From Kitasatospora cineracea (GTDB lineage: Bacteria > Actinomycetota > Actinomycetes > Streptomycetales > Streptomycetaceae), in NCBI RefSeq assembly GCF_003751605.1, contig NZ_RJVJ01000002.1, positions 744,001 to 808,000 of the forward strand: DNA of 64,000 bases. The letters run 5' to 3'. A program made the translations under genes and the position numbers. Shown here in pieces: positions 8,002 through 54,016 of this stretch (position 1 is the first letter of the stretch; every line of letters begins with the position of its first letter). The notes under the pieces are model-generated. The model worked only from the letters and a program-made list of their open reading frames with translations, did no database searches and was not told where the DNA came from.

Positions 8002-8555
8002 GACGCCGTCTCCTCGTCCGTGGTGCGCAGGGCGGTGTACAGCAGTTCGGCCTGGTAGAGCGCCATGACCCGGTGGGCGATCGGCGCGGCGAGCTCGCGG
8101 GCCCGGTCCGGCTCGTGGTGCTCGACCTTGACGAGCCAGGCCGTGACGCAGTCGTGCAGCATCGTGCGCATCCGGTCGGTCGCGTCGACGATGATGTCGC
8201 GGACGGCCGGGTCGGTGGTCGCCTCGCTCCAGGTCTGCACGCCGACCCGGGCCTCGGCGGGGTCGATCGCGGCGGTCAGGCGGGAGAGCAGCTCGTCGGG
8301 GCCGGGCGGGACGTCGGCCGCGGCGTACTCGCCGATGGTTCCGGCCCGTCTGGAGAGCATCTCGCGGGCGGCGGCCCGGACCAGTTCGGCCTTGTTGCGG
8401 TAGTGCGCGTAGATCGAGCCGACCGACAGCCCGGACTCGGCGGTGATGTCGGCGATCGAGGTCCGTTCCAGGCCGTTGCGGCTGAAGCAGCGCACGGCGG
8501 CCTCGGCGATCTGGGTACGCCGGAGTTCCTTGCGCGCGTCGGTGAGCCGGGGCAC
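7998..8555 (-). CDS. TetR-family repressor of the aldo/keto reductase operon
   Basis: A 185-residue regulator. The N-terminal helix-turn-helix spans residues 10-50 (RRTQIAEAAVRCFSRNG, TSIADITAESGLSVGSIYAHY). The ligand-binding helical domain follows, with a TetR_C pattern (TDPAVRDIIVDATDRMR). The start is GTG 8555, preceded by GGGAGG; the longer frame is Ser/Arg-rich. Three matching inverted repeats lie just upstream (8572-8650), so autoregulation of tetR-akr-qor is likely. Its stop overlaps the next ATG. Confidence 0.92.
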   Translation of the reverse strand: MPRLTDARKELRRTQIAEAAVRCFSRNGLERTSIADITAESGLSVGSIYAHYRNKAELVRAAAREMLSRRAGTIGEYAAADVPPGPDELLSRLTAAIDPAEARVGVQTWSEATTDPAVRDIIVDATDRMRTMLHDCVTAWLVKVEHHEPDRARELAAPIAHRVMALYQAELLYTALRTTDEETAS

Positions 8556-8571
8556 CGCGCCTCCCACAAAA

Positions 8572-8650
8572 AGAATGACGGTTCTGCTTGCACCGCAGAC
8601 ACTAGCAGAACCGCTGTTCTTTTTGCGCTCGCTAGGAGAACTGAGGTTCT
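8572..8650. promoter_or_regulatory. Three operator-like boxes AGAAY-N4-GTTCT upstream of tetR
   Basis: Three 14-bp inverted repeats of the form AGAAYNNNNGTTCT lie at 8572-8585 (AGAATGACGGTTCT), 8607-8620 (AGAACCGCTGTTCT) and 8637-8650 (AGAACTGAGGTTCT). The centres are 35 and 30 bp apart, about three helical turns. Boxes 1 and 2 also sit inside a larger inverted repeat with 20-base arms (17 of 20 positions matching). They precede the tetR GTG by 17-95 bases. Box 3 overlaps the end of the neighbouring acetyltransferase gene. Confidence 0.8.
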
Positions 8651-9705
8651 CTTTGTGCCGGAGGAGCCCCGCCCGCCAGCCGGTGTTTGAGGGCGAGCAG
8701 CGCCCCGCCCGGGCCGCGCGGCCGCAGCCAGCCGGTGTCGGTCCGGTCGACCGCCCCGAACCGGTACTTGTACGGTTCGGCACCGCGCAGGAAGTCGAAG
8801 GTGCGCACGCCCTCGGCCGCGCAGTCGCGGAGCGCCGCGTCGACCAGCGCGGTGCCCAGCGAGTCGGCGGCGAACCGCGGGTCCCAGCCGGTCTGGTAGT
8901 AGGCGAACCGGTCGGCCCAGCGGAAGCCGTACAGCACGCCGACCACCTCGCCGCGGCAGCGGGCGAGCTGGAAGGCCGGGCCGCGGCCGGGCGCGGCGCC
9001 CTGCACCAGCAGGCGGTGCAGCGGCAGCCGGTCGGCCCCGAAGCTGCTGGCCCCGCCCGCGGCGGCCGCCCGGCGCAGCCGGTGCAGTCGCAGCAGTTCG
9101 TCCAACAGCCCGGCCGCCAGGGCGGGTTCGGTGCTGCCGGGCGGCAGCCAGTGGAAGTCGACCCCGGCGGCGGCGAGCCGCCGGCGGGCCCGCCGGTTGG
9201 CGGCCCGGAAGTCCCGCGAGCCGAGCCGGTCGGGCCCGTCGGCCAGGTCCGCGCGCGGGCAGGCGGACCGGGCGACGGGGCGGGCGCCGACCGGCGGCAG
9301 GTCCGCGTGCGCGGCGTCCAGGTTCGGCAGCCAGAGCGTCTCGCGCCGGGCCCGGCCGGCCAGCCAGGCGGCCACCTCGGCCCGCCGGTGCGGGCGGACG
9401 GCGGGCCCGCAGTGGTCGGCGGCCCCGGGCCCGGACCCGAGCAGGGTGAGCACCGGCAGCTCGACCGGCACCCGCCGGTGCACCCGCAGCCGGGCCGCCC
9501 CGAGCGGCAGCACCGCCTCGGCCCGCCCGTCCGGGCCCCGCCACACCGCGATCTCCCCGGCCTGCCCGACCCCCAGCGTCCGCCACCAGGCGAGCACCCA
9601 GTCCGGCCCGGCGAACCACGATCCGTCCGGGTCCTGGGCCACCAACTCCCGCCAGTCGTGCACGAGTTCGCCGTCCAGCTCGGGTGTGCGATGGATCTCC
9701 GGCAC
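8632..9705 (-). CDS. CelD/BcsL-type GNAT acetyltransferase
   Basis: A 357-residue protein with the GNAT_6 (CelD-like) fold. The N-terminal part is ELVAQDPDGSWFAGPDWVLAWW, and the C-terminal acetyl-CoA-binding part is AFQLARCRGEVVGVLYGF ... YYQTGWDPRF and FDFLRGAEPYKYRFGA. Members modify extracellular polysaccharides or capsule precursors. The start GTG 9705 follows a G-rich ribosome site. It lies 29 bases after the polysaccharide deacetylase gene, so the pair probably acts on one surface glycan. The stop overlaps a TetR-operator-like box. The acceptor is unknown. Confidence 0.82.
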   Translation of the reverse strand: MPEIHRTPELDGELVHDWRELVAQDPDGSWFAGPDWVLAWWRTLGVGQAGEIAVWRGPDGRAEAVLPLGAARLRVHRRVPVELPVLTLLGSGPGAADHCGPAVRPHRRAEVAAWLAGRARRETLWLPNLDAAHADLPPVGARPVARSACPRADLADGPDRLGSRDFRAANRRARRRLAAAGVDFHWLPPGSTEPALAAGLLDELLRLHRLRRAAAAGGASSFGADRLPLHRLLVQGAAPGRGPAFQLARCRGEVVGVLYGFRWADRFAYYQTGWDPRFAADSLGTALVDAALRDCAAEGVRTFDFLRGAEPYKYRFGAVDRTDTGWLRPRGPGGALLALKHRLAGGAPPAQREPQFS

Positions 9706-13480: not shown

Positions 13481-14122
13481 ATGAACATCACTGCCGCGCC
13501 CACGAGTTGGGACGCATGCGTCGCACTCTTCGACTCCCGCGCCCTGCCCGTCTCCAGCTACGAGAACCTCTACGACGAGTCGTACGACGTCCACTCCGGC
13601 GCGCTGACCCTCCCCGGCCCGCTCGACCTGGACGCACTGGACCTGGACGGCACCGGGCTGGTCGTCGACGGCGACCTGACGGTGACGGGCGCGGTCCTCA
13701 ACGCGGACGACGGCTGCCCGGCCCTGGTCGTCCTCGGCGACCTGACGGCGGACGCCGTCCACCTGGAGGGCGACGCCAAGCTCCTGGTGCGCGGGAACGT
13801 CCGGGTCGGCGCGTTCGTCGGCCACATGACCGACAAGCTGGTGATGATCGGCGGCGACCTGGCCGCCGGGGTGACGGTCCTCTCCGCCGGCTTCTTCCCC
13901 GACCTGGTCGGCGGCGCCCTGACCGGCCCCGTCCTGGCACCGCCGTACGCGCTGGCCGAGCTCGACCACGAGGTGAGCGCCCCGCCCGCCGCCGAGGTCC
14001 TCGTCCCCGAGGTCCTGCTCGCCGACGGCGAGCAGGAGGAGGAGAGCTGCTTCGACGCCCCGGGCATCCACGGCGACCGCCTGTACGACCACCTGGCGGC
14101 GGGGCGCCCCGTGCTGCGCTAG
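13481..14122 (+). CDS. Beta-helix-like protein of unknown function
   Basis: A 213-residue acidic protein not assigned to a named family. Its middle (about residues 45-150) has regularly spaced hydrophobic strands and Gly-Asp turns (GLVVDGDLTVTGAVLNADDG, LVVLGDLTADAVHLEGDAKL, LLVRGNVRVGAF, LVMIGGDLAAGVTVL), the look of a right-handed beta-helix as in bactofilin-like or polymer-forming proteins. The C-terminus is Glu/Asp-rich. The ATG at 13481 is chosen because it begins normal-looking sequence. Function is unknown; a scaffold or immunity-type role is only a guess. Confidence 0.75.
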   Translation: MNITAAPTSWDACVALFDSRALPVSSYENLYDESYDVHSGALTLPGPLDLDALDLDGTGLVVDGDLTVTGAVLNADDGCPALVVLGDLTADAVHLEGDAKLLVRGNVRVGAFVGHMTDKLVMIGGDLAAGVTVLSAGFFPDLVGGALTGPVLAPPYALAELDHEVSAPPAAEVLVPEVLLADGEQEEESCFDAPGIHGDRLYDHLAAGRPVLR

Positions 14123-14231
14123 TGCTCCGGCCGACGACGTCCACCGGGTCGCCGGGCCTGCCGGCCGGTCCGGGTCGCTGCGACAGTCCACCGTCGCCGA
14201 CCCGCACCACCGGGATCGTCAGCAGGACGGG

Positions 14232-14378
14232 CTACCCGGTGAGCCGGACAGCCAGCAGCCCGAGGACGTGGAGGAACGCGACGAACCCGCCCGCGCAGAC
14301 GACCGGCATCGAGACCGCGGCGACCAGGGGCGCGCCCATCACTGCCAGTTGCCTACGCTGGCCGTCCGGACTCGACAT
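14232..14378 (-). CDS. Small single-span membrane protein (48 aa)
   Basis: An ATG at 14378 follows GGGAGGGACG. The 48-residue product has a polar start (MSSPDGQRRQ) and one long hydrophobic stretch (LAVMGAPLVAAVSMPVVCAG onward), ending VRLTG. The good ribosome site and clean hydrophobic pattern support it as a real gene. No family is recognised. Its promoter would lie opposite that of the NADH dehydrogenase gene. Confidence 0.6.
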   Translation of the reverse strand: MSSPDGQRRQLAVMGAPLVAAVSMPVVCAGGFVAFLHVLGLLAVRLTG

Positions 14379-14601
14379 CGTCCCTCCCGGGATCGACCGG
14401 CGGGGACCGGAGCGTCGCCCCGCCAGACGATCTCGCAGTACGCCGGTGTGGCACAAGACCTCGCGGGGCGGTGCCCGACCCGGCGAGCCTTCCCGGTCGA
14501 AGCACCGGGCCCTGTCCGGCGGCCGGTCGAGGTGCGGGGCGGCGGGGGCGCTGCCAGCATGAACCGCGTCCCCTCCCCCACCGCCGGCCCGGAGTGTGCC
14601 C

Positions 14602-15918
14602 ATGCCCCGTCCCCGAGTCCTCGTCATCGGCGCCGGCTTCGCCGGCGTGGAGTGCCTGCACCGGCTGGAGCGGATGCTCAAGCCGGAGGAGGCGGAGCTG
14701 GTGGTGGTCTCCCCGCACGACTACCAGCTCTACCTGCCGCTGCTGCCGCACGTGGCGGCGGGCGTCGTCACCCCGCAGTCGGTGGCGGTGTCACTGCGGC
14801 GGCGGCTGCGCCGCACCCGCTACGTGCCGGGGTTCGCCCTGGGGGTGGACACCCGGCGGCGGCAGGTGACCGTGCGCACCGTCGAGGGCGCCGAGTGGGA
14901 GATCGGCTACGACCACCTGGTGCTGGCCGCGGGCAGCACCACCCGGCTGTTCGACATCCCGGGCGTCACCGAGCACGCGCTCGGGATGAAGACCCTCGCC
15001 CAGGCCGCGTACCTGCGCGACCACGTGATCGGCCAACTGAACGCGGCCGCGGTCACCAACGACCCCGAGGAGCGGGCCGAGCGCCTGTGCTTCGTGGTGG
15101 TGGGCGGGGGCTACGCGGGCACCGAGACGGCCGCCTCCCTGGAACTGCTCACCCGGGAGGCGATCCGGCGCTTCCCGCACGTGGACCCGGCCCTGCTCAG
15201 CTGGCACCTGGTGGACATCGCGCCGCGGCTGCTGCCGGAGATCGGCGAGCGGCTCGGCGCGGCCGCGATGGCGGTCCTGCGCGGCCGCGGCCTCGAGTTC
15301 AGCCTGAACACCAGCGTGACCCGGGTGACCCCCCGGACGGTGGAGCTCACCGACGGCCGGACGCTGCGCACCCGGACCCTGGTGTGGACGGCCGGCGTGG
15401 CGGCCAGCCCGCTGGTGCACACCGTCGACACCGACCTGGTGCGGGGCCGGCTGGCGACCACCGCGGAGCTGACCGTGCCCGGCGCGGACGACGTGTTCGC
15501 GGTCGGGGACGCCGCCGCCGTCCCGGACCTCGCCAAGGCGGACGGCAGCATCACCCCGCCCACCGCGCAGCACTCGCAGCGCCAGGGCAAGGCAGTGGCC
15601 TTCAACGTGGCCGCGCGGCTGCGGGGCACCGCGATGCGGCCGTACTTCCACCGCGACCTGGGGCTGGTGGTGGACCTGGGCGGCGGCTACGCGGTCTCCC
15701 GGCCGCTGGGCGTGGAGCTGAGCGGCCTCCCGGGGCAGGCGGTGGCCCGCGGCTACCACCTGATGGCGCTGCCGACCGTCACGGCCCGCACCCGGGTGCT
15801 GGTCAACTGGGCGCTGAACGCCACCACCGGCAGCGACTTCGTCAGCACCGGCTTCCAGCACGGCCGCCCGGCCACCCTGCCCGACTTCGAGCACACCGAC
15901 GTCTACCGCCCGGCCTGA
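14602..15918 (+). CDS. Type II NADH dehydrogenase-like FAD oxidoreductase
   Basis: A 438-residue two-dinucleotide-binding-domain flavoprotein. FAD motif VLVIGAGFAGVECLHRLERM is at the start, the NAD(P)H motif FVVVGGGYAGTETAASLELL near 160, and the ATG-like VFAVGDAAAVPDL near 297. The C-terminal region (TGSDFVSTGFQHGRP) includes a short amphipathic stretch for peripheral membrane contact. NDH-2 enzymes pass electrons from NADH to quinone without pumping protons. The ATG at 14602 is preferred, with GGAG 7 bases upstream; GTG 14596 is also in frame. A terminator follows. Confidence 0.9.
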   Translation: MPRPRVLVIGAGFAGVECLHRLERMLKPEEAELVVVSPHDYQLYLPLLPHVAAGVVTPQSVAVSLRRRLRRTRYVPGFALGVDTRRRQVTVRTVEGAEWEIGYDHLVLAAGSTTRLFDIPGVTEHALGMKTLAQAAYLRDHVIGQLNAAAVTNDPEERAERLCFVVVGGGYAGTETAASLELLTREAIRRFPHVDPALLSWHLVDIAPRLLPEIGERLGAAAMAVLRGRGLEFSLNTSVTRVTPRTVELTDGRTLRTRTLVWTAGVAASPLVHTVDTDLVRGRLATTAELTVPGADDVFAVGDAAAVPDLAKADGSITPPTAQHSQRQGKAVAFNVAARLRGTAMRPYFHRDLGLVVDLGGGYAVSRPLGVELSGLPGQAVARGYHLMALPTVTARTRVLVNWALNATTGSDFVSTGFQHGRPATLPDFEHTDVYRPA

Positions 15919-22161: not shown

Positions 22162-25100
22162 TTACTGCTGCCAGGCTTCGATGGGGTTGCCGAGCCAGCG
22201 GGTGTCGGCGGGCACCGTCTCGGCGCGCATCACCAGGGAGGCCGGGCCGAGGGTGGAGCGCTCGCCGACGGTGCTGCCGGGCAGCACGATCCCGCCCGGG
22301 CCGAGGGTGGCGCCCGCGCGGAGCTCCACAGTATCCAGTCGCATGATCCGGTCGTGGAAGAGGTGGGTCTGCAGCACGCTGCCGCGGTTGACGCTGACGC
22401 CGTCGCCGAGGGTGACCAGGTCGGCCTCGGGCAGCCAGTAGCTCTCGCACCACACGCCGCGGCCGATCCTCGCGCCGAGCGCGCGCAGCCACAGGTTCAT
22501 CAGCGGGGTGCCGGCGGTGCGGCCGACCAGCCAGGGCACGGCGAGGACCTCGGTGAAGGTGTCGGCGAGCTCGTTGCGCCACACGAAGCCGGACCACAGC
22601 GGGTGCTCGACGGCCCGGAACCGGCCGACCAGCAGCCACTTGGCGGCGGCCGAGACCAGGCAGGCCGCCAGGCCCGCGCCGAGCAGCACGAAGCCCGACA
22701 GCAGCGGCTGCCCGAGCGCGCACAGCGCGGCGGCGGTGAGCACGGCCAGCGCGGCGGAGGCGAGCACCGGGACGATCCGGGCCAGTTCGGTCAGGCCGCG
22801 GGCCCAGCGCAGCCGGGCGGGCGGCTCGTAGGTGAGGGCGAGGTCGGCGGTGTCGGCGGCCCGGGGCAGCTTGACCGGCGGCATGCCCAGGTAGGAGCTG
22901 CCGCGCTTGGCCTTCTTCGGCGTCGCGGAGAGCACGCCGACCAGGCCCCGGTCGGGGACGGCCCGGCCGGGCGCGGTCATCCCGGAGTTGCCGAGGAAGG
23001 CCCGCTCGCCGATCTCGGCCCGCCCGATCCGCACCCAGCCGCCGCCCAGCTCGTACGGGGCGATCAGGGTGTCGTCGGCGAGGAACGCGCCGTCGCCGAC
23101 CTTGGTCAGGCTGGGCAGCGCCAGCACGGTGGAGACCTCGGCGCCCTTGCCGATCCGCATGCCGAGCAGCCGCAGCCACACCGGGGTGATCAGTCCGGCG
23201 TACAGCGGGAACAGCGTCTCGCGGGCCAGGTCCATCAGCTGGCTGACCGTCCACGCCTGCCAGCCGACCCGGCCGTGCAGCGGGTGGTAGCCGGTGCGCA
23301 GGCCGAGCGAGAGCAGCCGGACGCCCGCCAGGACGAGCGCGGCGTAGGCCAGCCCGTAGGCGAGGGTGGCGGGGACGAGGGCGGTCAGGGCGCCGCGCAG
23401 GGCCTGGGCGAGGCCGTCTCCGGGGTGGACGAACCGCCCGGCGATCAGCAGCGCGGGCAGGGCGGCGAGCAGCGGCAGCAGGGTGAGGGCGAAGCCGGTG
23501 GCGCCGTAGGCGGCGGCCCAGCGGGGGGTGCGCGGCGGGCGCTGCTTGGGCCAGCCGCGTTCGGCCTTGCCGGTCTTGACGGCGGGGGCGCCGGCCCAGC
23601 GCTGGCCGGTGGGGACGGAGCCGGTGACGCCGGAGCCGGGGGCGATCTCGGCGCGCTTGCCGATCTTGGCGCCGGGCAGCAGGGTCGAGCGGGTGCCGAC
23701 CACGGCTCCGGCGCCGATCCGCAGCGCGCCGATCTCCAGCCGGTCGCCGTCCAGCCAGTAGCCGGACAGGTCGACCTCGTTCTCGACGGCGCAGCCCTTG
23801 CCCAGGCGCAGCAGGCCGGTGACGGGCGGCAGGGCGTGCAGGTCGACGTCGGGGGCGACCCGGCAGCCGAGCGCCCGGGCGTAGCGGATGAGCCAGGAGC
23901 CGGAGAGTTCGACCGCGCCGGTGGCTTCGGCGAGCCGTTCGGCGGTCCACAGCCGCAGGTGGACGGAGCCGCCGCGCGGGTACGTGCCGGGGCCGGTGCC
24001 GCGCAGCAGCAGCCGGGCGCCGCCCGCGGCGAGCGCCAGGCGGCCGGGCGCGGAGTACAGCAGGACGGCGCCGGCGGCCAGCAGCCACCAGGGGGCGGTG
24101 GGGGCCCAGGGGTGGTCGCCGAGCAGGTTCAGCAGGGTGCCGAGGACGCCGAGGGCGAGGCTCCAGCGCAGGCCGGTGAGGGTGGCCAGCGGCAGCATCA
24201 GCAGCAGTTGCAGGGTCTGGGCGCGGCGGGGCGTGGGGGCGACGGTGCGGGCCGGGCCCTCGGTCTGGGCGGACTTCTCCAGCAGCCGGGCGAGCTTGCG
24301 CAGGGTGGGCTGCTGGTAGATGTCGAGGACGGAGGCGGCCGGGTAGCGGGTGCGCAGCAGGGTGGTGAGCCGGGCGGCGGCCAGCGAGCCGCCGCCGATC
24401 GCGAAGAAGTCGTCGCCCGCGCCGCGGACCCGGGTGCCGAGGATCTGCGCCCACTGCTCGGCCAGCCAGGCCTCGGTGCCGTAGAGCTGCTCGGCGGGGC
24501 CGGAGGTCTCCAGGTCGGGCAGCGGCCAGGGCAGCGCGTCCCGGTCGACCTTGCCGGAGGTGCGGGTGGGCAGGTGGTCGACGGTGGCGAGCAGCGGGAC
24601 GAGGGCGGCGGGCAGTTCGGCGCGCAGCCGGGCGACGGCGGCGTCCCGGTCGAAGCCGTCCTGGGCGACCAGGTAGCCGACCAGCAGCTGGTTGCCGCCG
24701 CGGGCGGTGCGCACGGCGGCGGCGGCGCCGGAGACGGCGGGCAGCGCCTGGAGGGCCGCGTCGACCTCGCCGAGCTCGATCCGCCGTCCGCCGAGCTTGA
24801 TCTGCTCGTCGGCGCGGCCGAGGAAGACCAGGCCCTCGGGTTCGGCGCGGACCAGGTCGCCGGAGCGGTAGGCGCGCTCCCAGCCGAGGGATTCCAGCGG
24901 GGCGTACTTCTCGGCGTCCTTGGCCGGGTCGAGGTAGCGGGCCAGGCCGACGCCGCCGATCACCAGTTGGCCGCTGGCGCCCATCGGGACCACCTCGCCC
25001 GCCTCGTCGACGACGGCGAGCTCCCAGCCGTCCAGCGGCAGGCCGATCCGGATCGGGGCCCGCCCGGTCATCAGGGCGCCGCAGGCGACCACGGTGGCCT

Positions 25101-25980
25101 CGGTGGGGCCGTAGGTGTTCCACACCTCGCGGCCCTCGGTGACCAGGCGCTCGGCGAGTTCGGGCGGGCAGGCCTCGCCGCCGAAGATCAGCAGCCGGAC
25201 CTCGTCCAGCGCCTCGGCGGGCCAGAGCGCGGCCAGCGTGGGGACGGTGGAGATCACGGTGATCTCCTGCTCGGCCAGCCACGGGCCGAGGTCGGCGCCG
25301 GAGCGGACCTGGGAGCGCGGGACGGGCACCAGGCAGGCGCCGTGCCGCCAGGCCAGCCACATCTCCTCGCAGGAGGCGTCGAAGGCCACCGACAGCCCGG
25401 CCATCACCCGGTCTCCGGGCCCGATCGGCTCGTCCTGGAGGAACATCGCGGCCTCGGCGTCGACGAACGCGGCGGCGCTGCGGTGGCTGACGGCGACGCC
25501 CTTGGGCCTGCCGGTGGAGCCGGAGGTGAAGATGATCCAGGCGTCCTGCTCGGGGCCGGGCGCCTGCGCCTCGTGGCCGGACGGCTTGACCCGGTCGAGG
25601 GCGTAGTCGGCGCCGATCACCGCGTTGACGTCGGCCTCGCCGAAGACCAGCTCGGCCCGCTCGTCGGGGTCCTCGAAGTCGACGGGCACGTAGGCGGCGC
25701 CCGCGGCGAGCACCGCCAGGATCGCCACGTACAGCTGGTTGCCGCCGGAGGGGACCCGGATGCCGACCCGGTCGCCGAGGCCGACGCCCGCCTCGGCGAG
25801 GCGGCGGCGGACCTTCTCGACCTCGGCGAGCAGCGCCGCGTAGCCGAGCGTCTCGCGTCCGTCGTCCAGCGCCGGCTCCTGCGGGTGGGCGGCTGCGGTG
25901 GCCGCGAGCACGTCGACCAGGGTGCGCGGTCCGGGTGCGGCCTGGGCGCGGAACAGCGCGGTGGCGGGGGCGGTGATCAT
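22162..25980 (-). CDS. Pls/PosA-type membrane NRPS, predicted epsilon-poly-lysine synthetase-like
   Basis: A 1272-residue protein with the architecture of S. albulus Pls. The adenylation domain spans about 15-500 ([39 protein letters not shown]). The carrier domain has Ser near 531 ([11 protein letters not shown]). From about 590, six hydrophobic segments alternate with three tandem hexapeptide-repeat-like condensation domains ([60 protein letters not shown]). There is no thioesterase. By eye-alignment to GrsA the pocket reads D-A-E-S-I-G-T-V-V-K, close to the lysine code DAESIGSVCK of BacB. It should join one amino acid repeatedly at the membrane. It heads an operon with the M1 peptidase and lpdA. 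Confidence 0.92.
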
Positions 25981-26290
25981 GGCTGCAACGGTCCTCGTCC
26001 TGGGTTCCCCGGCAGTCAACCGAAGGCGTCGAAAGCGCGACAACCTGGGCAAGTTTACCGGTCAGGGCGGGTGGACGGCCGGAGGCGAGGGCGCCCGGGG
26101 CCGCCGGGCGGCCGGTGCGCGGGGGGCGGTGCGAGCCGACGGATCATCAGCTCGCACCGCTGCGGGGCAGGTTGCGGGGGTCGGCCGGGCGTCCCGGCTG
26201 ACGGCGGGTCAGACTCCCGACACGCCGGTGTATTCCGGGAGTTCACCCACTGTTCACGCATCCGCCTTCTTCGCTTGGCCGCCCGGTCGG
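25981..26290. other. Intergenic region (310 bp) upstream of the NRPS with two hairpins
   Basis: This holds the NRPS promoter and the end of the permease transcript. GCGGTGCGAGC (26126-26136) pairs perfectly with GCTCGCACCGC (26150-26160) around a 13-base loop. A smaller CTCCCG/CGGGAG pair lies at 26214-26219/26236-26241. Both are downstream of the permease stop (26291) and may terminate it. A TTGACT hexamer is present on the - strand about 40 bases before the NRPS ATG, without a clear -10. No other gene seen. Confidence 0.5.
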
Positions 26291-29094: not shown

Positions 29095-29673
29095 CTACGG
29101 GCGGCGGGTGGCCAGCAGCAGGCCGGAGGAGCAGTCCAGGCGGGTGGCGTGCAGTCGGGGGTCGGTGGTCAGCCGCTCGACCAGGGCGGCGACCGCCGGG
29201 GCGTGGCCGGCCGGCCAGGTCGGCTGCGGCAGCAGGTCGTCGACCAGGTACAGGCCGCCCGGGGCGAGCAGCTGCAGCGCCCGGTCGAGGTGGTGGAACT
29301 TGCCGGGCCAGGTGTCCGCGAAGACCAGGTCGAGGCTGCCGGGCGCCAGCGCGTCGATCAGCTCCGCCCCGTCCCCCACCACCAGCCGCAGCCGCGGGTC
29401 CGCCCCCAGGTGCTCGGCGGCGACGGCCGCGACCGCCGCGTCCTGCTCGACGCTCACCAGCGTCGCCGCCGCGTCCATCCCGCTCAGCAGCCAGCTCGTC
29501 CCCGCCCCGGCGCCGGTGCCCAGCTCCAGCACCCGGCCCCCGGGGCGGGCCGCCGCCAGCGTCCGCAGCAGCTGCCCCGTGGTCGCGTCGCAGGACATCG
29601 CGAAGCCGAGCGCCGCGCACCCCCGCTCGATCGCGGCCAGCACGGCGGGGTGGGAATCGGTGGTGAGCGTCAT
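29095..29673 (-). CDS. SAM-dependent O-methyltransferase (class I)
   Basis: A 192-residue Rossmann-fold methyltransferase. Motif I is VLELGTGAGAGTSWLL, the acidic ribose-binding residue is in LVSVEQD, motif IV is LDLVFADTWPGKFHHLDRAL, and motif post-IV is GGLYLVDDLLPQPTW. It resembles the O-methyltransferase family 3 (CCoAOMT-like). GGAGG precedes the ATG at 29673. The substrate is unknown, and it lies alone between DUF421 and a divergent phosphatase gene. Confidence 0.88.
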   Translation of the reverse strand: MTLTTDSHPAVLAAIERGCAALGFAMSCDATTGQLLRTLAAARPGGRVLELGTGAGAGTSWLLSGMDAAATLVSVEQDAAVAAVAAEHLGADPRLRLVVGDGAELIDALAPGSLDLVFADTWPGKFHHLDRALQLLAPGGLYLVDDLLPQPTWPAGHAPAVAALVERLTTDPRLHATRLDCSSGLLLATRRP

Positions 29674-29801: not shown

Positions 29802-29943
29802 CGGGCGGGCGGAGTCGGGCGGGGTGGGTGCTTGGCAGGCGCGGCGCGAGCGATAAATATGACTTAAGTGACCTTTTTCCCTTCTGGGTGGATGTGGGTG
29901 TTTGAAAGCCTTGCTCTCGTCCGACCTGCCGAAGGAGACCCCC

Positions 29944-32181
29944 GTGACCGGCACCCCCCGGCGCGCCGTCCGTCTGCTGCTCATGGCTGCCGCCTCGCTG
30001 TGCGTGCTGCTGCCGCTGCTGCGCGGCGCCACCACGGCCGGGGCGATCACCGAGTTCGGGGTCGGGCGGGACGTCGCGGTGGCCGCCCAGCTGGGGTCGG
30101 CGCTGGCGATGCTGACGGCGCTGCTGGTGTCCGGCCGGCTGGTGGACGCCTGGGGGTGGCCGCGGGTGCTGCGCTGGTCGCTGGGGGCGATGGCGGCCGG
30201 GGGCGCCGTCGCGGTCACCGCCGGACACCCCTGGACGTACCTGGCGGGGCGGGCCGTGGAGGACGCCGGCTCGGCCGGGGTGCTGATCGCCGCCCTGGCC
30301 TCCGTCCCCGTGCTGAACCTGCCCGGCCGGATCACCCGGGTGGTCGGCGGGGCGGTCGCCGGGGTCGCCGTGGTCTTCGTGCTCGGCGCGAACGTCGCCG
30401 TGCGGATCGACACCGCGGCCGGCTGGCGGCTCGGCGAGTCGGTGGTCCCGGCCGCCGCCGCGCTGCTGCTGCTCGCCGCACTGCGCCTGCTGCCGCGCGA
30501 CCGGCTGCCCCGCGCCGGCCCCCGGCCGGCCCCCGTCTGCGGCCCCGGCGTCGCGGCGGCCGCCCTGCTGGCCGTCGCGGGCCTGGAACTGGGCCCGCTG
30601 CGCGACTGGTCGGACCCGCTGGTCGGCGGGCTGCTGGGCGCCGCCGCGGTGCTGCTCGCGGCCTGCCGGGCCCGGACCGTGCTGCCGGCCCGCCGCCGGC
30701 CCGCCCCCGCCCCGCCCGGGGTGCCGGCCCGGGCCGCGGCCGGGGCGATCACCGCGGGCGCGACGCTCGGCTTCACCCAGCTCGCGCTGACCGCCGCCGT
30801 CCCCGTGCTGCTGCTCCAGCGCGGCGTGACGGTGGCCCACGTGACGCTGTCGATGTCCGGCTACGGGCTGGGCATGCTGGCGGCCGGGTTGACCGCCCGG
30901 CGCTGGCGGCTCACCCCGCTGACCAGCTCCTCGCTCGGCCTGCCGCTGGCCGCCGTCGGCCTGGCCTCGCTGCACTTCCTGCCCGCCGGGGCCGGGCAGG
31001 CCGCCCTGGTCGCGGGCGCGGTCGCGGTGCTGGTCGGCTTCGGCCTGGTGGTCACGCAGATCCCCTACCTGGCCGGTTTCCTGGCCGCGCTCCCCCGGCA
31101 GCGGCGGGCGGCCGCCTCCGCGCTCTACCCGGTGGCGATCCTGTTCGGCGGGGTACTGGCGCAGACCGTCCCGGGCAGCTCGGCCCTGCTCACCGTTGGG
31201 GGCGACGCCCGCGCGCTGAGCACCGTGCTCTGGGTGGCCTGCGGGGCGGTCGCCCTGGTGGCGATGGTGCTGGGCCGCCCCGTGGTGTCGCTGACCGTCG
31301 CCGCGGCCGCCGGACTCCAGCACCTGCTGCTGGTCGCACTGGCCGGCGGGAGCGTCGCCGGCCGCCCCGGCGCCGCCACCGCCGCGCTCGCGGTCGGCGC
31401 GGCGATGGGGCTGGTCGCCTGGGGCCGCCGCCAGCAGTCGGAGCGGCTGGCCCGCGTCCGGGCCAACGAGATCGCCCTGCAACAGGCCGTGCTGCACCCG
31501 ATCCCGGCCCGGCTCGGCGAACTGCGGCTGACCGGCCACTACCAGCCCGCGACGGCCGGCACCGGCGTCGGCGGCGACTTCTTCGAGGCGGTGCGCACCC
31601 CGCACGGCACCCGGCTGCTGATCGGCGACGTCCGCGGCAAGGGCCTGCAGGCCGTCCAGACCGTCACCGACCTGCTCGGCTGCTTCCGCTCCCAGGCGCA
31701 CGAGACCGCCGACCTCGGCGAACTCGCGGCCCGGCTGGACCGCCAGCTGGCCCGGCTGGCGGCGGCCCGCGGCGACGAGGAACTGTTCGCCACCGCGCTG
31801 CTGCTCCAGCACCGGGACGGCATCGACCAGGTCGAGGTGGTCAACTGCGGGCACCTCGCCCCGCTCCGGATCGGCCCGGACGGCGTCCGCGCCACCCCCG
31901 TCCCCGCCCTGCTGCCGCTCGGCCTCGGCGCGCTCGGCCTCGGCCCCGCCCCCGCCCCCACCCCGCTGGCCCTGCCCGGCGGCTCGGCCCTGCTGCTGCA
32001 CACGGACGGGCTCAGCGAGGCCCGCAACTCCTCCGGCGAGTTCTACCCCCTGGGCGAACGCCTCTCCGTCCTGCGCGCCACCGACCCCGGCCGCCTGATC
32101 GCCGGCCTCGCCTCCGACGTCCGCGACTGGACGCACCAGCTCTCGGACGACATCGCCCTGATCGCCCTGACCCGGGCCTAG
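29944..32181 (+). CDS. Fusion of an MFS-like membrane domain with a PP2C/SpoIIE phosphatase
   Basis: A 745-residue protein. Residues 1-490 hold about 14 hydrophobic segments with an MFS-14-TM drug-transporter layout (LGSALAMLTALLVSGRLVDA, then YGLGMLAAGLTARRW and YPVAILFGGVLAQTVPGSSA). Residues 515-745 are a SpoIIE/RsbU PP2C domain with metal Asp motifs (GVGGDFFEAV, LIGDVRGKGLQA, CGHLAPL, LSDDIALIALT). The phosphatase half is expected to act on an anti-sigma-factor antagonist. The membrane half may sense rather than transport. The GTG at 29944 follows GAAGGAGA. An AT-richer stretch near 29850-29880 probably holds the promoter. Confidence 0.88.
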   Translation: MTGTPRRAVRLLLMAAASLCVLLPLLRGATTAGAITEFGVGRDVAVAAQLGSALAMLTALLVSGRLVDAWGWPRVLRWSLGAMAAGGAVAVTAGHPWTYLAGRAVEDAGSAGVLIAALASVPVLNLPGRITRVVGGAVAGVAVVFVLGANVAVRIDTAAGWRLGESVVPAAAALLLLAALRLLPRDRLPRAGPRPAPVCGPGVAAAALLAVAGLELGPLRDWSDPLVGGLLGAAAVLLAACRARTVLPARRRPAPAPPGVPARAAAGAITAGATLGFTQLALTAAVPVLLLQRGVTVAHVTLSMSGYGLGMLAAGLTARRWRLTPLTSSSLGLPLAAVGLASLHFLPAGAGQAALVAGAVAVLVGFGLVVTQIPYLAGFLAALPRQRRAAASALYPVAILFGGVLAQTVPGSSALLTVGGDARALSTVLWVACGAVALVAMVLGRPVVSLTVAAAAGLQHLLLVALAGGSVAGRPGAATAALAVGAAMGLVAWGRRQQSERLARVRANEIALQQAVLHPIPARLGELRLTGHYQPATAGTGVGGDFFEAVRTPHGTRLLIGDVRGKGLQAVQTVTDLLGCFRSQAHETADLGELAARLDRQLARLAAARGDEELFATALLLQHRDGIDQVEVVNCGHLAPLRIGPDGVRATPVPALLPLGLGALGLGPAPAPTPLALPGGSALLLHTDGLSEARNSSGEFYPLGERLSVLRATDPGRLIAGLASDVRDWTHQLSDDIALIALTRA

Positions 32182-39288: not shown

Positions 39289-40512
39289 CTACCGGTCGAG
39301 GTCGTCCGGTTCGAGGTCGTCCGGCTGCGGGGCGGGCGGCTTGGGGTCGGCCACCCAGCCGGCGGCCAGGACCAGGCGGGAGGTGCGGTGGACGGCGAGG
39401 AAGGCGAACGGGCGGTCGAAGGTGGCGGTGATCCGGCGGACCGCGTACGGGGGCCGGGTCGCGGCGGCACCGACGGCGAGGCCGAACGCGGTGACGGCGG
39501 CGGCCCGGAAACCGCGCGGGCCGAAGACGGCGGTGGCGGACTGCCGGGCGGCGGTGACGGCGAGCGGGTCGGGGCTGATGCCGGGGAAGTGGCCGGTGCC
39601 GGTGTCGGTGGCGGTGCGCAGGCCGAACAGGTCGGGGCGGTGGAGCAGGTCGTGGTCGTCCGCCAGGTCGAACTCGACCGTCCGGGCCAGGAGTAGGGGC
39701 TCGCGGGTGTAGCTGCGCACCCAGCCGGCCTCCAGGCCGGGGCCGGGCGCGCCGTCGGGGAGGGCGGTGCCGGGGCGCAGCCGGGCGGGGTGTTCGGCGG
39801 TGCGGACGGCGGCGGCGAGCACCGCCCCGGGGGCGGCGTCCTCGGGGCCCAGGCAGAGGTGGACGTCGACGCCCTGCAGGCCGAGCACCTTGAGCACGGT
39901 GAGCGGACCGGCCGCGGTGTCGGCGACGCCGACCCGGTCGAGCAGGCCGGTGACGCGGTACAGGCCGGCGACGGTGCGGCCCCGCCAGGCGCCGGCCTCG
40001 GGCCGCTCGTCGTAGGACTGGAAGCGGCGGATCCAGTCGGTGCGGACGGTGAGCGCACCGGCCAGCACGAGTTCGGTGTCCGGGGTGGTCCCGACGGGCA
40101 TCCGGGGGATCTGCCCGGCCGTCCGGTCGGCGGCCCAGGCGTCGAGCGCGGCCCGGTCCGCGTCCGGGTCGCCGGTGATCCGGCCGAGGCTGTACGGGGG
40201 CAGGGCGGCGGTCCAGGCCGGTTCGAGCGGGAGCCGGTCCCTGGTCCAGACGCCGAGGGCCGAGCTGACGCCGGGCGTGCGGTCGAGGGCGGCGAGCAGT
40301 TCGCGTCCGGCGCCGGCGGCCTCTCCGGTCGGGACGCCGAGGGCGTCGGCGAGTTCGCGGGCGGCGGGGCCGGCCGATCCGGCGGCGAGCAGGGCGAGCG
40401 GGGCCCAGGCGCCGGGGCCGCTGAAGGCGGCGTTCCGCCCGGCGGCCGGGGCCTGCCGCGCCCAGCGGGCGGTCAGGTCGTTGACGGCTCGGACGGTGCG
40501 GTACATCGGCAC
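39289..40512 (-). CDS. Serpin-like protein
   Basis: A 407-residue protein with divergent serpin features. The N-terminal hB-like segment is FSGPGAWAPLALLAAGSAGP-AARELADALGV, the mid-barrel LVLAGALTVRTDWIRRF recalls LVLANAxxFKGxW, and the C-terminal FDRPFAFLAVHRTSRLVLAA matches the conserved FxxDRPFxFxIxxxxxxxxLFxG closing strand. There is no signal peptide. The hinge/reactive-loop region is poorly conserved (Ala-rich FRAAAVTAFGLAVGAAATRP), so inhibitory function is uncertain. The start is GTG 40512 with GGGGGAG upstream; ATG 40506 is possible. Confidence 0.75.
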   Translation of the reverse strand: MPMYRTVRAVNDLTARWARQAPAAGRNAAFSGPGAWAPLALLAAGSAGPAARELADALGVPTGEAAGAGRELLAALDRTPGVSSALGVWTRDRLPLEPAWTAALPPYSLGRITGDPDADRAALDAWAADRTAGQIPRMPVGTTPDTELVLAGALTVRTDWIRRFQSYDERPEAGAWRGRTVAGLYRVTGLLDRVGVADTAAGPLTVLKVLGLQGVDVHLCLGPEDAAPGAVLAAAVRTAEHPARLRPGTALPDGAPGPGLEAGWVRSYTREPLLLARTVEFDLADDHDLLHRPDLFGLRTATDTGTGHFPGISPDPLAVTAARQSATAVFGPRGFRAAAVTAFGLAVGAAATRPPYAVRRITATFDRPFAFLAVHRTSRLVLAAGWVADPKPPAPQPDDLEPDDLDR

Positions 40513-41339: not shown

Positions 41340-42218
41340 TCAGCGGCGCTGCCAGAGGGCCGGGACGTTCGGCGGCTCCCAGCCGGCGTACGCGATGTGG
41401 CCCTGGATGCAGACGTAGCTGACGCCGTTGTAGGTGACGACGTCACCGGCCTTGTAGCTGGCGCCGACCGTCCAGGTGGTGGAGCCGCCGCCCGTGTTGC
41501 TCGGGCTGGGGCTCGGCGAGCCCGGGTTGGAGCTGCTGGGGCTGGGGCTGGGCGAGCCGGTGCCGTTGACGTTGAGCACGAAGTCGAAGCTGGCTTCGCT
41601 GCCGTTGCCGACCTGGCGGACCGTCATCAGCAGGGCCGGGTCGTAGATGGTGTCGGTGGCGTTGCGCGGCTCGTTCGGGAAGTACAGCTGGGTGGTGAGG
41701 ATCGGCTGGTTGGGCGCCTGCACCTTGACGTGGATGTGCCGGGTGCGGCCCGGGTAGAGGCCCGGGATGATCGTGGTCAGCGAGTACGCGCCGTTGGCGG
41801 CGCTGAACTGGTGGCCGCGGAAGGTGTAGCCGGAGTTGTCGTAGTTGCCGTTGGTGTCGGCCTGCCAGAAGTCCAGCAGGGCACCGGAGATCGGTACGCA
41901 GTTCCGGCCGAAGACGTAGCCGCTGACGGTCAGCGGGGTGCCCTGGGTGCCCGGGGTGACCAGGTTGGTGCGCAGCGGGGAGCCCGGCTTGAAGTACGGG
42001 CCCTCGATCTGCTCGCCGGTGACGTGCCCGTCGCTGCACTGGGGGGTGAGCGGGGCCGGGACGTCGGCGGCGACCGCGTCGCGGGCCAGCGCGACTCCGC
42101 TGCCGATCAGGACCGGCGCGGCGCCGGCCAGGGCGGCGGCCTTGAGCAGGCCCTTGCGGCTGATCTTGCGATCGGCCAGGTCGCCCAGGCCGTCCAGCGG
42201 GTTGTGGGGGGTGGACAT
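41340..42218 (-). CDS. Secreted intradiol ring-cleavage dioxygenase with C-terminal CBM5/12
   Basis: A 292-residue exported enzyme. A twin-arginine-like leader (DRKISRKGLLKAAALAGAA) is followed by an intradiol dioxygenase domain (about 60-220). The Fe(III) ligands are Tyr in EGPYFK, Tyr in GLYPGRTRHIH and the two His of RHIHVKV. A Ser/Pro linker follows (SPSPSPSSSNPGSPSPSPS), then a carbohydrate-binding module 5/12 (WTVGASYKAGDVVTYNGVSY ... WEPPNVPALW). This is the layout described for SACTE_2871 of Streptomyces sp. SirexAA-E, which cleaves catechols from lignin. The start is ATG 42218 with GGAGAG upstream. Confidence 0.92.
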   Translation of the reverse strand: MSTPHNPLDGLGDLADRKISRKGLLKAAALAGAAPVLIGSGVALARDAVAADVPAPLTPQCSDGHVTGEQIEGPYFKPGSPLRTNLVTPGTQGTPLTVSGYVFGRNCVPISGALLDFWQADTNGNYDNSGYTFRGHQFSAANGAYSLTTIIPGLYPGRTRHIHVKVQAPNQPILTTQLYFPNEPRNATDTIYDPALLMTVRQVGNGSEASFDFVLNVNGTGSPSPSPSSSNPGSPSPSPSNTGGGSTTWTVGASYKAGDVVTYNGVSYVCIQGHIAYAGWEPPNVPALWQRR

Positions 42219-42560
42219 GGCTCTCCGTTCGACTGCTTCGTGGGTCGCCGCACGCCCGGATTCCGTTGGATGGGACATGACACCTGGAGAGGTCGGGTCT
42301 CCCGACACGGCGGCGCGGTGGGGTGCCTCAGACGCTAGGCCCTGCCCGCCCGGGCCGTCGATGGACGGGGGCGGCGGGACGTGGTGCATTCCTCAGGCTC
42401 CGCCACGCGGTGTTCGACGGAGCGTCAGCAGGGCTTCGCGCGCAGCTCGCCGGGCGTGTACCCGCGGGGCCGTGCCGGGGCCGCGGTGAGGGGTGCCGGG
42501 GCCGCGATGGGGGTGCCGGGGCTGCGGCGGGCGGTGGGCGGCGGGCGGCGGGCGGCGGGG

Positions 42561-48545: not shown

Positions 48546-49949
48546 TACTGCAACGGTGCTTAGGGTGACGAGGTTTCAGCTCTTGGGCTGTGGCCTCGTC
48601 TCTTGTAGTGGCTGGTCCGGGCCTGGTGTTGGCGTCGGCGGCGCCAGCGGGACCAGTGCAGGACGTGGTCGATGCTGCGGCGGGCAGGCCGGGTGAGGCC
48701 GGTGATCAGTCGGCGGATCTCGGGGAGGGTGAGGGGTATCAGGTCTGGCGTTCGATCTGGTCCGGCCCCTTTTCGAGCTGCTGGGCCCGCAGGACGGTCA
48801 GGTAGGCGTGGGCGGCCATGGCCAGGGTGATGTGCCGGTACCAGCCCGGGTGGCGGCGGACCTGGTAGTCGTCCAGGCCGCACTGGCCCTTCGCGGTCTG
48901 GAAGCACTCCTCGATCGCCCAGCGGGCACCCGCGACGGCGATCAGCTCGTTCAGTGTGGCCTCGGCGGGCGCGTAGGCGATGTAGTAGGCGATCTTCGCC
49001 GGGTCGGTGATGCTGCGGCGGGCCAGGACCCAGTGCCTGCGGTCGGGGCGGTGCCAGGGCCGGACCTCCACACGCGCCCAGTCGTAGATCCGCAGGCCGT
49101 GGGCGCCGTCGCCGCAGGATCGGCGCTTCCACTTCTGCCGGGGCAGATCGGCCATCAGGTCGTGCAGCCGGTGGTCCAGGGCCCGCCGGGTGACGACGGT
49201 GTCGTGCCGGGTGGTGGCCACGACGTGGAAGACGTCGGCCTGCTCCAACTCGGTCCGCCAGCCCTTGCTGCAGCCGTAGCCGGCATCCGCGGTCACCCAG
49301 CGGAACGGGATCCGGTCGTCGATCGCACGGCGGACCATCGCCCGCGCGAGCTGGACCTTGGTCGCGAACTCGACCTCGTCACCGATCCCGGCCGCCCGGC
49401 AGCGCTCGCGGTCGTCCGTCCAGGACTTCGGCAGGTAGAGCGCCCGGTCGATCAACGTCCGGCCCAACTTGCCCGAGTAGGCGAGGAACACTCCGACCTG
49501 GCAGGTCTCAGTCCGGCCGGCGGTGCCGGAGTACTGCCGCTGGACGCCGGCCGACCGCACGCCCTTCTTCAGGAACCCGGTGTCGTCCACGATCAGCACG
49601 CCGCCCGGGTCCGCCAGGTGCTCGACCACGTACCCGCGCACGTCGTCGAGCACCCCGTCGGCGTCCCAGTCGATCCGGTTCAGCAGCCGCTGGATCCGGT
49701 CCGGCCCGCCGTGACCTGCCTCCTCCGCCACCGTCCAGCCGTTCTTGCGCTCCAACGGCGCCAGCAGGCCACGCATGTAGGCCATTGCCGACTCGCGCGA
49801 CTCGCTCCGCGCGAACCGATGAGCAAACCGCTCATGCAACCCGGCCAGCCCATCCGACCAGCGACGAGCATCGACCTCGGATATGTCCCCACCCATGAAC
49901 AGCCCAACGAACGAACCCAACAACCGACACGATAAGCACCGTTGCAGTA
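48546..49949 (-). mobile_element. IS701-family insertion sequence
   Basis: Perfect 17-bp terminal inverted repeats TACTGCAACGGTGCTTA lie at 48546-48562 and, reversed, at 49933-49949. CTAG flanks both sides (48542-48545, 49950-49953), matching the 4-bp YTAR-type target of IS701 elements. Length 1404 bp. Confidence 0.92.
48560..49896 (-). CDS. IS701-family transposase, C-terminus in -1 frame
   Basis: The main frame (ATG 49896 to stop 48739) encodes the IS701/DDE_5 transposase with ADAGYGCSKGWRTELEQADV and WAIEECFQTAKGQCGLDDYQ containing catalytic Asp and Glu, and VLIVDDTGFLKKG with the first Asp. It ends early at QIERQT. The usual C-terminal tail (LIPLTLPEIRRLITGLTRPA and HVLHWSRWRRRRQHQARTSH) continues in the -1 frame to 48560. 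The overlap contains the slippery heptamer A_AAG_GGG (48772-48766). The fused product would be about 445 residues. Confidence 0.88.
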
Positions 49950-52766: not shown

Positions 52767-54016
52767 GGGACCTCCAGTTCGAGGCGGGTGGGCCCGCCGG
52801 GCGGGCTGGTCACGGTGAGCCGCCCGTCCAGGACGGCGAGCCGGTCGGCGAGCCCCTGCAGGCCGGCCCCGGCGCCGGGGTCGGCGCCGCCGCGGCCGTT
52901 GTCGGTGACGGACAGCCGCAGCGCGCCCGCGTCGAGGGTGCCGCGGACGGTGATCCCGTCCGCGCCGCTGTGCTTGGCGGCGTTGGTGAGCGCCTCGCTG
53001 ACGGTGAAGTAGGCGGCGCTCTCCACCGGGCCGGGCAGCCGCCGCGGCAGGTGCAGGTCGACCAGCACCGGGACGGGGTGCCGGGCCGCCAACTCGGCGA
53101 CCGCGGACGGGAGTCCGTGGTCGGTGAGGACCTGCGGGTGGATGCCGCGGACCAGGGTGCGCAGCTGCTCCAGGGCGAGCTTCGCCTCGCCGCGGGCCCG
53201 GGCGACCAGGGCCGTGGCGGGGGTGTCCCGGCCGCGCAGTTCGAGCTCGACCAGACCCAACGTCATGCCCAGGGCGACGAGTTGCTGCTGCGCGCCGTCG
53301 TGCAGGTCGCGCTCGATCCGGCGGCGCTCGGCCTCGAAGGCGTCCGCCAACCGGGCCCGGGAGCGGGTGAGTTCGACCACCCGGACGCCCAGGTCGGTGT
53401 CCCGCAGGCCCAACAGCTGCTGGGCGAGCCGCACTTGGGCTCCGGCGAGCAGGGCGCCGCTGTACGCCAGGACGACCAGGCCGAGCAGACCGGCGGCGCT
53501 CGCCGCGAAGCCGTCCAGCGGGCCGGAGACGGGCCGTCCGGGCCACAGCATCACCGTGTCCGGGCTGACCGCCAGGATGAACACCGGGGCGGAGAGCAGC
53601 AGCAGGCAGAACGCCAGCGCGGCGGCGAACAGCAGCCCGGCGGCGGCGAACACGGTGGACTGGACGAGTGCGTAGGCGAGTTCGCGCCGGCTCGCCCGCT
53701 CCCGCAGCCGCCCGCGCAGCCCGCGGGCCGCACTGCGGTGCGGGTCGGGCAGCCGCTCCGGTTCGACCAGGCGCAGCCGCCACCGCTCCAGCGCGCCGAC
53801 CGGCACCCCGAGCAGCGCCGTCCACCCGAGCACCAGCACCCCGACGCCGAGCACCGACAGCCCGACCCCGACCAGCAGCCCGGCCGCCAGCGCGACCAGC
53901 ACCACCGCCCCCTGCACCGCGCCCGTCACCAGCAGCGCCCACCCCCGCCACGGCCACCACGACACCAGGAACCGCACCGGCCGCCGCCGCACCGCCGCCC
54001 ACACCGCGACACCCAT
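52760..54016 (-). CDS. NarL-family sensor histidine kinase
   Basis: A 418-residue kinase. Four to five membrane helices in residues 20-200 form a sensor of the YfiJ/DesK-like type, with hydrophobic runs LLVTGAVQGAVVLVALAAGL, STVFAAAGLLFAAALAFCLL and AASAAGLLGLVVLAYSGALL. HisKA_3 is RRIERDLHDGAQQQLVALGM with the phospho-His. The HATPase domain has EALTNAAKHSGAD and VTDNGRGGADPGAGAGLQGL. It is paired with the overlapping response regulator. The stimulus is not predictable; membrane or envelope state is likely for this class. Confidence 0.93.
   Translation of the reverse strand: MGVAVWAAVRRRPVRFLVSWWPWRGWALLVTGAVQGAVVLVALAAGLLVGVGLSVLGVGVLVLGWTALLGVPVGALERWRLRLVEPERLPDPHRSAARGLRGRLRERASRRELAYALVQSTVFAAAGLLFAAALAFCLLLLSAPVFILAVSPDTVMLWPGRPVSGPLDGFAASAAGLLGLVVLAYSGALLAGAQVRLAQQLLGLRDTDLGVRVVELTRSRARLADAFEAERRRIERDLHDGAQQQLVALGMTLGLVELELRGRDTPATALVARARGEAKLALEQLRTLVRGIHPQVLTDHGLPSAVAELAARHPVPVLVDLHLPRRLPGPVESAAYFTVSEALTNAAKHSGADGITVRGTLDAGALRLSVTDNGRGGADPGAGAGLQGLADRLAVLDGRLTVTSPPGGPTRLELEVPC

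Follow-up and report, generated by a model that had tools for sequence, protein, structure and literature searches.

Fusion of a DHA2-type major facilitator unit to a SpoIIE/RsbU-type phosphatase in Kitasatospora: a candidate pump-derived membrane receptor

Activation of the B. subtilis phosphatase RsbU proceeds by means of a helical linker which, once ordered, brings the phosphatase domains together as a dimer and acts on two switch helices (PMC12143880). The authors argue that, in this family of phosphatases, coiled-coil linkers relay the signals of diverse sensors, and the corresponding switch of SpoIIE has also been described (PMC5468089). The sensors named for RsbU/SpoIIE-type phosphatases are PAS, response-receiver, GAF and HAMP domains (PMC12143880). 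A transporter fold and a cytoplasmic signalling enzyme combined in one chain are found in CbrA and CrbS (PMC13022988, PMC7918813), of which CbrA has been called a rare transceptor (PMC13022988). Here we analyse a gene of Kitasatospora cineracea whose product joins a membrane unit of the major facilitator superfamily (MFS) to a PP2C phosphatase. It is located in a stretch of 64,000 nucleotides (contig NZ_RJVJ01000002.1, positions 744,001 to 808,000), referred to below as the window, whose own numbering is used throughout. The protein shares with the SpoIIE/RsbU-type PPM phosphatases (SpoIIE and RsbU of B. subtilis, Rv1364c of M. tuberculosis, SiaA and RssB of P. aeruginosa) the fold, the C-terminal position of the PP2C domain, the metal aspartates and a helical linker towards the switch region; it differs from them in its regulatory unit, which is a DHA2-type MFS module. 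We regard it as probable that this single chain is a pump-derived membrane receptor controlling its phosphatase.

The fusion gene lies on the forward strand, starts with a GTG codon at 29944, ends with the last base of its stop codon at 32181 and encodes 745 residues. This GTG is taken as the start because the ribosome-binding site AAGGAG in front of it is the same in all nine aligned 5' regions; the open reading frame finder had listed a TTG at 29902, which is located upstream of AAGGAG. The GC content of the frame is 0.98 at third and 0.57 at second codon positions, and translation runs across the frame without a stop in eight orthologs. A chance frame or annotation artefact was rejected in view of the orthologs, the conserved ribosome-binding site and purifying selection (see below), an assembly or read-through artefact in view of 19 fused frames without internal stop in 10 of 70 genomes of the genus. 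Pfam assigns residues 35-406 to MFS_1 (48.5 bits, cut-off 33.4) and residues 553-744 to SpoIIE, a PP2C family (121.8 bits, cut-off 25), and both families are matched at E <= 0.01 in all 22 aligned fusions. No third Pfam family was found in the protein at E up to 1, and NCBIfam gave nothing near its cut-off. An earlier note on this DNA, made from the letters alone, had claimed an MFS-like domain in drug-exporter layout fused in one frame to a complete PP2C domain with its metal-site motifs, and had called for a domain search with profile models. This search identifies the N-terminal half as MFS, and the claim holds in each of these parts, as detailed in the following.

Motif and fold together support a complete phosphatase domain. 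The metal ligands of SpoIIE are Asp610, Asp628, Gly629, Asp746 and Asp795 (PMC3517971). The aspartates D545, D562, D688, D735 and D736, assigned by motif to the equivalent positions and the residue following the last of them, are present without exception in the 22 aligned fusions; V563 stands where SpoIIE has Gly629. An AlphaFold2 model of residues 485-745, calculated from 13 rows with a predicted local distance difference test score (pLDDT) of 82 and a predicted template modelling score of 0.82, was the only model submitted to a fold search. Its best matches are the RsbU domain of Rv1364c (Z 23.2, 215 residues, root mean square deviation (rmsd) 3.0), RssB (Z 22.9, 222 residues, rmsd 3.2), SiaA (Z 22.7, 237 residues, rmsd 3.2) and SpoIIE (Z 20.9, 210 residues, rmsd 3.4). 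Rv1364c was also the only solved chain retrieved at E <= 0.1 by a single-protein sequence search (3e-6). Domain, metal ligands and fold are thus those of the SpoIIE/RsbU-type family.

The same model presents residues 495-516 as a helix leading from transmembrane helix (TM) 16 to the phosphatase, which is consistent with the linker mechanism of RsbU. On the Goldman-Engelman-Steitz (GES) hydropathy scale, 16 membrane segments are located N-terminal of the phosphatase. The last two, 448-466 and 476-494, align gap-free with the final helix pair of short membrane PP2Cs from Kitasatospora and related actinomycetes (e.g. G000:C1:3131144, a 458-aa frame), and the alignment continues through the linker and the phosphatase behind them. 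Since these segments align with the anchor helices of the short phosphatases, we favour the count of 16, that is, a predicted 14-helix DHA2-type MFS unit plus two helices brought by the phosphatase. A comparison of TM15-TM16 by hhalign gave a score of 16.7 (P 0.003), whereas the scores of seven other TM pairs were 2-7 (P 0.2-0.8), and the pair TM15-TM16 is probably derived from a short membrane PP2C. In their best matches the short proteins are about 45-52% identical to the fusion from residue ~437 on; they differ from it in that they lack the MFS unit and that only about 3-5 helices are predicted in them.

For the membrane half, profile comparisons support an MFS assignment and point to the 14-helix DHA2 exporters as the closest relatives, in keeping with the drug-exporter layout proposed earlier. 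A profile of the whole family matched the solved MFS chains 8pnl (putative triacylglyceride transporter, 6.6e-9), 7d5p (drug transporter, 5.7e-6), 3wdo (MFS transporter, 7.6e-4) and EfpA (8x6x, 8.3e-4); the matches to 8pnl, 7d5p and EfpA are collinear across most of the MFS unit, that to 3wdo covers the first half only. We take 8pnl to be Rv1410c and 7d5p to be NorC. With the MFS half alone, the matches to solved structures were weak and mixed (7d5p 8.8e-4, 8pnl 0.0016, EfpA 0.013), and chains of human SLC22A6 ranked between 7d5p and 8pnl over the first third only.

The motifs of DHA2 pumps are known as A, C and D1, and an acidic residue of TM1 plays a role in their proton coupling. These hallmarks were compared between 22 fusions and 27 stand-alone MFS proteins of the same genome, the latter taken from its 30 best MFS_1 loci, three of which were dropped as their match to the seed did not exceed 330 residues. 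The alignment comprises 22 of the 23 fusions known to us (L083 is present in the tree only), and some of its rows start at the BLAST match rather than at the start codon. Motif A, located between TM2 and TM3 as in DHA2 antiporters, is largely kept: G64 and D68 are each present in 26/27 stand-alone proteins and 21/22 fusions, G71 in 26/27 and 22/22, respectively, while W72-P73 of the window's copy and its orthologs differs from the usual R-R/K. The TM4 arginine is likewise retained (27/27 and 20/22). In contrast, two features of DHA2 antiporters are gone in the fusions. The TM1 aspartate is found in 26/27 stand-alone proteins and in 0/22 fusions, and motif C of TM5 (G..GP..GG) has lost its proline (19/27 versus 0/22) and both glycines of its GG pair (26/27 and 27/27 versus 0/22 each), its first glycine persisting in 10/22 (versus 27/27). 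The same holds for an asparagine and a proline of TM6 (25/27 and 27/27 versus 0/22) and for glutamine at position 290 (25/27 versus 0/22), whereas Asp 196 (27/27 versus 10/22) and Trp 161 (27/27 versus 14/22) are partly retained. The fusions have invariant residues of their own, P127-G128-R129, R181, W222 and G276-F277, which occur in 22/22 rows from three genera. The polar residues N150, Q279 and Q407 are well conserved, and position 459 is occupied by Q (14 rows) or E (8 rows). Compared with the DHA2 exporters 7d5p, EfpA and 8pnl, the fusion protein thus retains a collinear profile match and most of motif A; it differs from them by the attached phosphatase and, judged against its stand-alone relatives in the same genome, by the missing TM1 aspartate and motif C.

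The distribution of the fusion was traced by whole-genome searches, which scored the best 7-26 candidates per genome (up to ~140 in first looks), a depth at which unrelated MFS-PP2C fusions elsewhere may have been passed over. In the genus, 19 full-length fusions occur in 10 of 70 genomes, nine of the window's type (82-91% identical, the window's copy included) and ten paralogs at 50-54% identity. The 8.76 Mb genome of K. cineracea carries one of each, the paralog lying at G000:C1:4804207-4806381; three strains of K. phosalacinea and Kitasatospora sp. SolWspMP-SS2h carry the fusion protein at 86-90% identity. A draw of 121 family genomes (E <= 1e-70) yielded four further fusions, distributed over three genomes that belong to two other genera. 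The order, with 118 other genomes searched, gave none at E <= 1e-60, and the class, with 147 others, gave no full-length one (7 candidates scored). The combination, described as uncommon in the earlier note, is indeed uncommon at this reach. A profile of the MFS half alone, with 22 candidates scored per genome of the genus, retrieved 19 strong matches (1e-164 or better), none of which lies in a frame shorter than 754 aa. The three matches ranking next (1.5e-19 to 7.9e-18; frame lengths 352-511 aa) are presumably ordinary MFS proteins. The profile found nothing at 1e-25 in 59 other genomes of the order (26 scored), and among the frames of 30 MFS loci of the own genome, a small set, the best stand-alone match to the MFS half reached 3e-13. 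Within the reach of these searches, this MFS subfamily is therefore found only fused.

The 23 full-length fusions form one clade (100/100) in a phosphatase tree of 71 domains; this clade joins 26 short membrane PP2Cs at a node supported by 94/83 (midpoint root, some long branches elsewhere). Because the fusions form a single clade, one fusion event followed by duplication is the simplest account, and several independent fusions among those found were rejected. Among the best 30 SpoIIE loci of the own genome (51 matches in total), none has more than five predicted helices in up to ~500 residues upstream. A plasmid-borne family was rejected: 46 plasmid records match, none of which covers more than 80% of the query, and the 25 listed matches begin only at residue 495 and extend over 31-34% of it.

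Both halves of the fusion are under purifying selection. Among seven orthologs the ratio of nonsynonymous to synonymous substitution rates (dN/dS) is 0.29-0.38 for the MFS half and 0.09-0.24 for the phosphatase; the adjacent amino-acid permease has values of 0.21-0.34 (four loci examined, three of which contain it). A decaying MFS relic was rejected in view of dN/dS values near those of this permease. As a separate observation, synonymous divergence of the fusion gene (29944-32178 compared with L061-L064) is 0.24-0.33, about double the 0.10-0.21 of most neighbours in the same strain pairs, as if the gene evolved faster or had undergone exchange with less closely related bacteria.

Based on these data we propose the following scenario. 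The MFS unit, DHA2-type in build and devoid of the TM1 aspartate and motif C, would serve as a receptor for a small molecule or for a state of the membrane. Ligand or membrane state would induce a conformational change of this unit, which would be transmitted through TM15-TM16 and the continuous cytoplasmic helix to the switch helices of the PP2C domain and thereby set its metal-dependent serine/threonine phosphatase activity, probably via the dimer arrangement of the phosphatase domains in the manner described for RsbU and SpoIIE. The most probable substrate would be a phosphorylated anti-anti-sigma factor with a STAS domain encoded elsewhere in the genome; we infer such a partner-switching target, as well as the receptor function and the dimer switch. 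In its most specific form, which we put forward tentatively, the scenario implies that a DHA2 fold was converted once in Streptomycetaceae to a receptor dedicated to small molecules, which sets a sigma-factor switch by way of the phosphatase. The ligand could be antibiotic-like or lipid-like, as are the compounds handled by DHA2 pumps. That the unit is a sensor rather than a pump, as the earlier note had supposed, is indirectly favoured by the loss of the TM1 aspartate and motif C with motif A kept, and by the finding that 19 of 19 strong matches to the MFS subfamily in the 70 genomes of the genus are fused.

Several points weigh against this receptor scenario. The comparison proteins stem from one genome and are its best 30 MFS_1 matches, so that they lean towards the canonical, and their designation as DHA2 is a judgement based on similarity to one seed. 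Loss of the TM1 aspartate and motif C is compatible with transport by another coupling and does not exclude it. An AlphaFold2 model of the whole protein (5 closely related rows) has a mean pLDDT of 32.5 and no fold claim is based on it; MFS fold and helix count consequently rest on profiles and hydropathy. The Kyte-Doolittle scale at 1.4 yields 14 segments, without 80-98 and 300-318, in agreement with the number of about 14 in the earlier note but short of the 16 favoured here. The hhalign probability for TM15-TM16 against the short PP2Cs is 4%, values being low for such short stretches. The MFS_1 search of the own genome (140 of 193 candidates scored) missed the paralogous fusion, which does match MFS_1 if scanned alone. 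Finally, none of 21 window frames scanned besides the fusion (four of them without Pfam match) encodes a STAS or HATPase_c_2 protein.

The last point extends to the paralogs, as none of nine frames beside three paralog loci (one without match) encodes such a protein either. The nearest HATPase_c_2 match above cut-off is ~36 kb away (the 74 matches of the genome include other ATPases), and a weak match below cut-off lies at 52871-53005 in a 427-aa frame. The neighbouring genes encoding anti-sigma antagonists, for which the earlier note suggested to look, are thus absent from the frames scanned, and no partner-switching neighbourhood was found, with the limit that a genome-wide STAS search was not made and partners can lie elsewhere. 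Probably the fusion gene is an orphan, with its partner gene located in another part of the genome.

An alternative we consider unlikely is a true transceptor, in which the MFS unit still transports, by uniport or an unusual coupling, and the phosphatase reads transport as proposed for CbrA. It would account for the permease-like level of purifying selection on the MFS unit and for the largely kept motif A, and it has a precedent in CbrA with its histidine-binding pocket and transport cycle (PMC13022988). However, the TM1 acid and motif C are gone in 22/22 fusions, and besides D224 (21/22), which is placed at a predicted segment edge, no intrahelical acid reaches half of the rows, E occurring at 215 in 9/22 and at 459 in 8/22. 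CbrA and CrbS are composed of SLC5, STAC and histidine kinase modules where the fusion has MFS and phosphatase, and Pfam detects no STAC domain in the fusion at E up to 1; the protein might work by analogy like CbrA/CrbS, of which it is not a member. Less likely still, and in our view improbable, the MFS unit is a mere membrane anchor or localiser and regulation occurs via a partner protein or the expression level. The faster evolution of the MFS half (dN/dS 0.29-0.38 versus 0.09-0.24 for the phosphatase) and the nearest short relatives, which manage with about 3-5 predicted helices, fit such a role, but anchoring does not need a conserved 14-helix unit or fusion-specific residues invariant in 22/22 rows from three genera. 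That the phosphatase acts on a transporter, on a membrane protein or on its own chain, the fusion regulating transport rather than transcription, is very improbable: the physical linkage of the halves and the absence of sigma-regulator products among the neighbours scanned are in its favour, whereas the MFS unit lacks transporter hallmarks and the catalytic domain matches the SpoIIE/RsbU branch, whose characterised targets are STAS proteins (PMC11418112).

A pump-derived receptor, if confirmed, would widen the range of signals read by RsbU/SpoIIE-type phosphatases, in particular to small molecules that reside in the membrane or pass through it. A natural before/after set exists in one genome, which holds MFS relatives of the stand-alone kind, short membrane phosphatases devoid of an MFS unit and two paralogous fusions; the conversion of a transporter to a receptor could thereby become dissectable by part swapping in a soil bacterium. 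Entries combining MFS_1 and SpoIIE are presumably present in the architecture tables of InterPro/Pfam, hence we claim no first sighting. Judged by titles and the start of abstracts, in a coverage with few subscription journals, no MFS-PP2C fusion was seen in the literature, and the terms "MFS", "major facilitator" and "transporter" do not occur in the main text of a PP2C survey (PMC12088040).

Table 1. Position of the fusion gene, its parts and other features (window numbering unless a locus is named)
Feature	Coordinates	Strand	Basis
Coding sequence, 745 aa: DHA2-type MFS unit, 2 TM, helical linker, SpoIIE/RsbU-type PP2C	29944..32181	+	
Conserved AT-rich block, possible promoter or operator	29850..29888	+	9 aligned 5' regions
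Ribosome-binding site AAGGAG	29932..29937	+	invariant in 9/9 aligned 5' regions
MFS unit, predicted TM1-TM14, residues 1-443	29944..31272	+	Pfam MFS_1, GES hydropathy, solved-chain profile matches
MFS motif A, residues 64-76, GRLVDAWGWPRVL, partly retained	30133..30171	+	fusion alignment
TM15-TM16, residues 448-494, probably inherited from short membrane PP2C	31285..31425	+	
Cytoplasmic linker helix, residues 495-516, TM16 to phosphatase switch region	31426..31491	+	AlphaFold2 model of 485-745
PP2C/SpoIIE domain, residues 553-744	31600..32175	+	Pfam; fold matches
D545, equivalent of SpoIIE Asp610, putative metal 2 ligand	31576..31578	+	22/22, by motif
D562, equivalent of SpoIIE Asp628	31627..31629	+	22/22, by motif
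D688, equivalent of SpoIIE Asp746	32005..32007	+	22/22, by motif
D735-D736, equivalent of SpoIIE Asp795 and next residue	32146..32151	+	22/22, by motif
Large NRPS-like protein with AMP-binding, carrier and hexapeptide-repeat domains	22162-26052	-	
Serpin-like frame	39289-40512	-	
Dioxygenase-domain protein with carbohydrate-binding module CBM_5_12	41340-42389	-	
DDE-type transposase frame	48739-49923	-	
Short membrane PP2C and MFS gene pair (locus L074)	7695-9068 and 13846-15798	+ and -	

Upstream of the fusion gene lie a divergent methyltransferase gene (29095-29670) and genes for a YetF-like protein, the amino-acid permease and a protein resembling non-ribosomal peptide synthetases (NRPS); downstream follow genes for a VOC (glyoxalase-like) protein, an M48-type peptidase, a BlaI-type repressor and an NlpC/P60 protein. 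A consensus scan for a promoter or terminator at the fusion gene found none. The conserved AT-rich block is placed 55-95 bases 5' of the start codon and begins in several copies with ATAAG-N12-CTTAT, an inverted repeat which is broken in the window's copy.

The K. cineracea genome as a whole yielded 51 SpoIIE/PP2C, 74 HATPase_c_2 and 143 MFS_1 matches, some of them pieces of one gene. At G000:C2:1605737-1606317 the SpoIIE domain is split into two adjacent pieces in different frames (profile positions 4-108 and 114-191), possibly a broken phosphatase gene. The short PP2C of this genome nearest to the fusions is separated by ~5 kb from an oppositely oriented MFS gene, an arrangement that may be due to chance.

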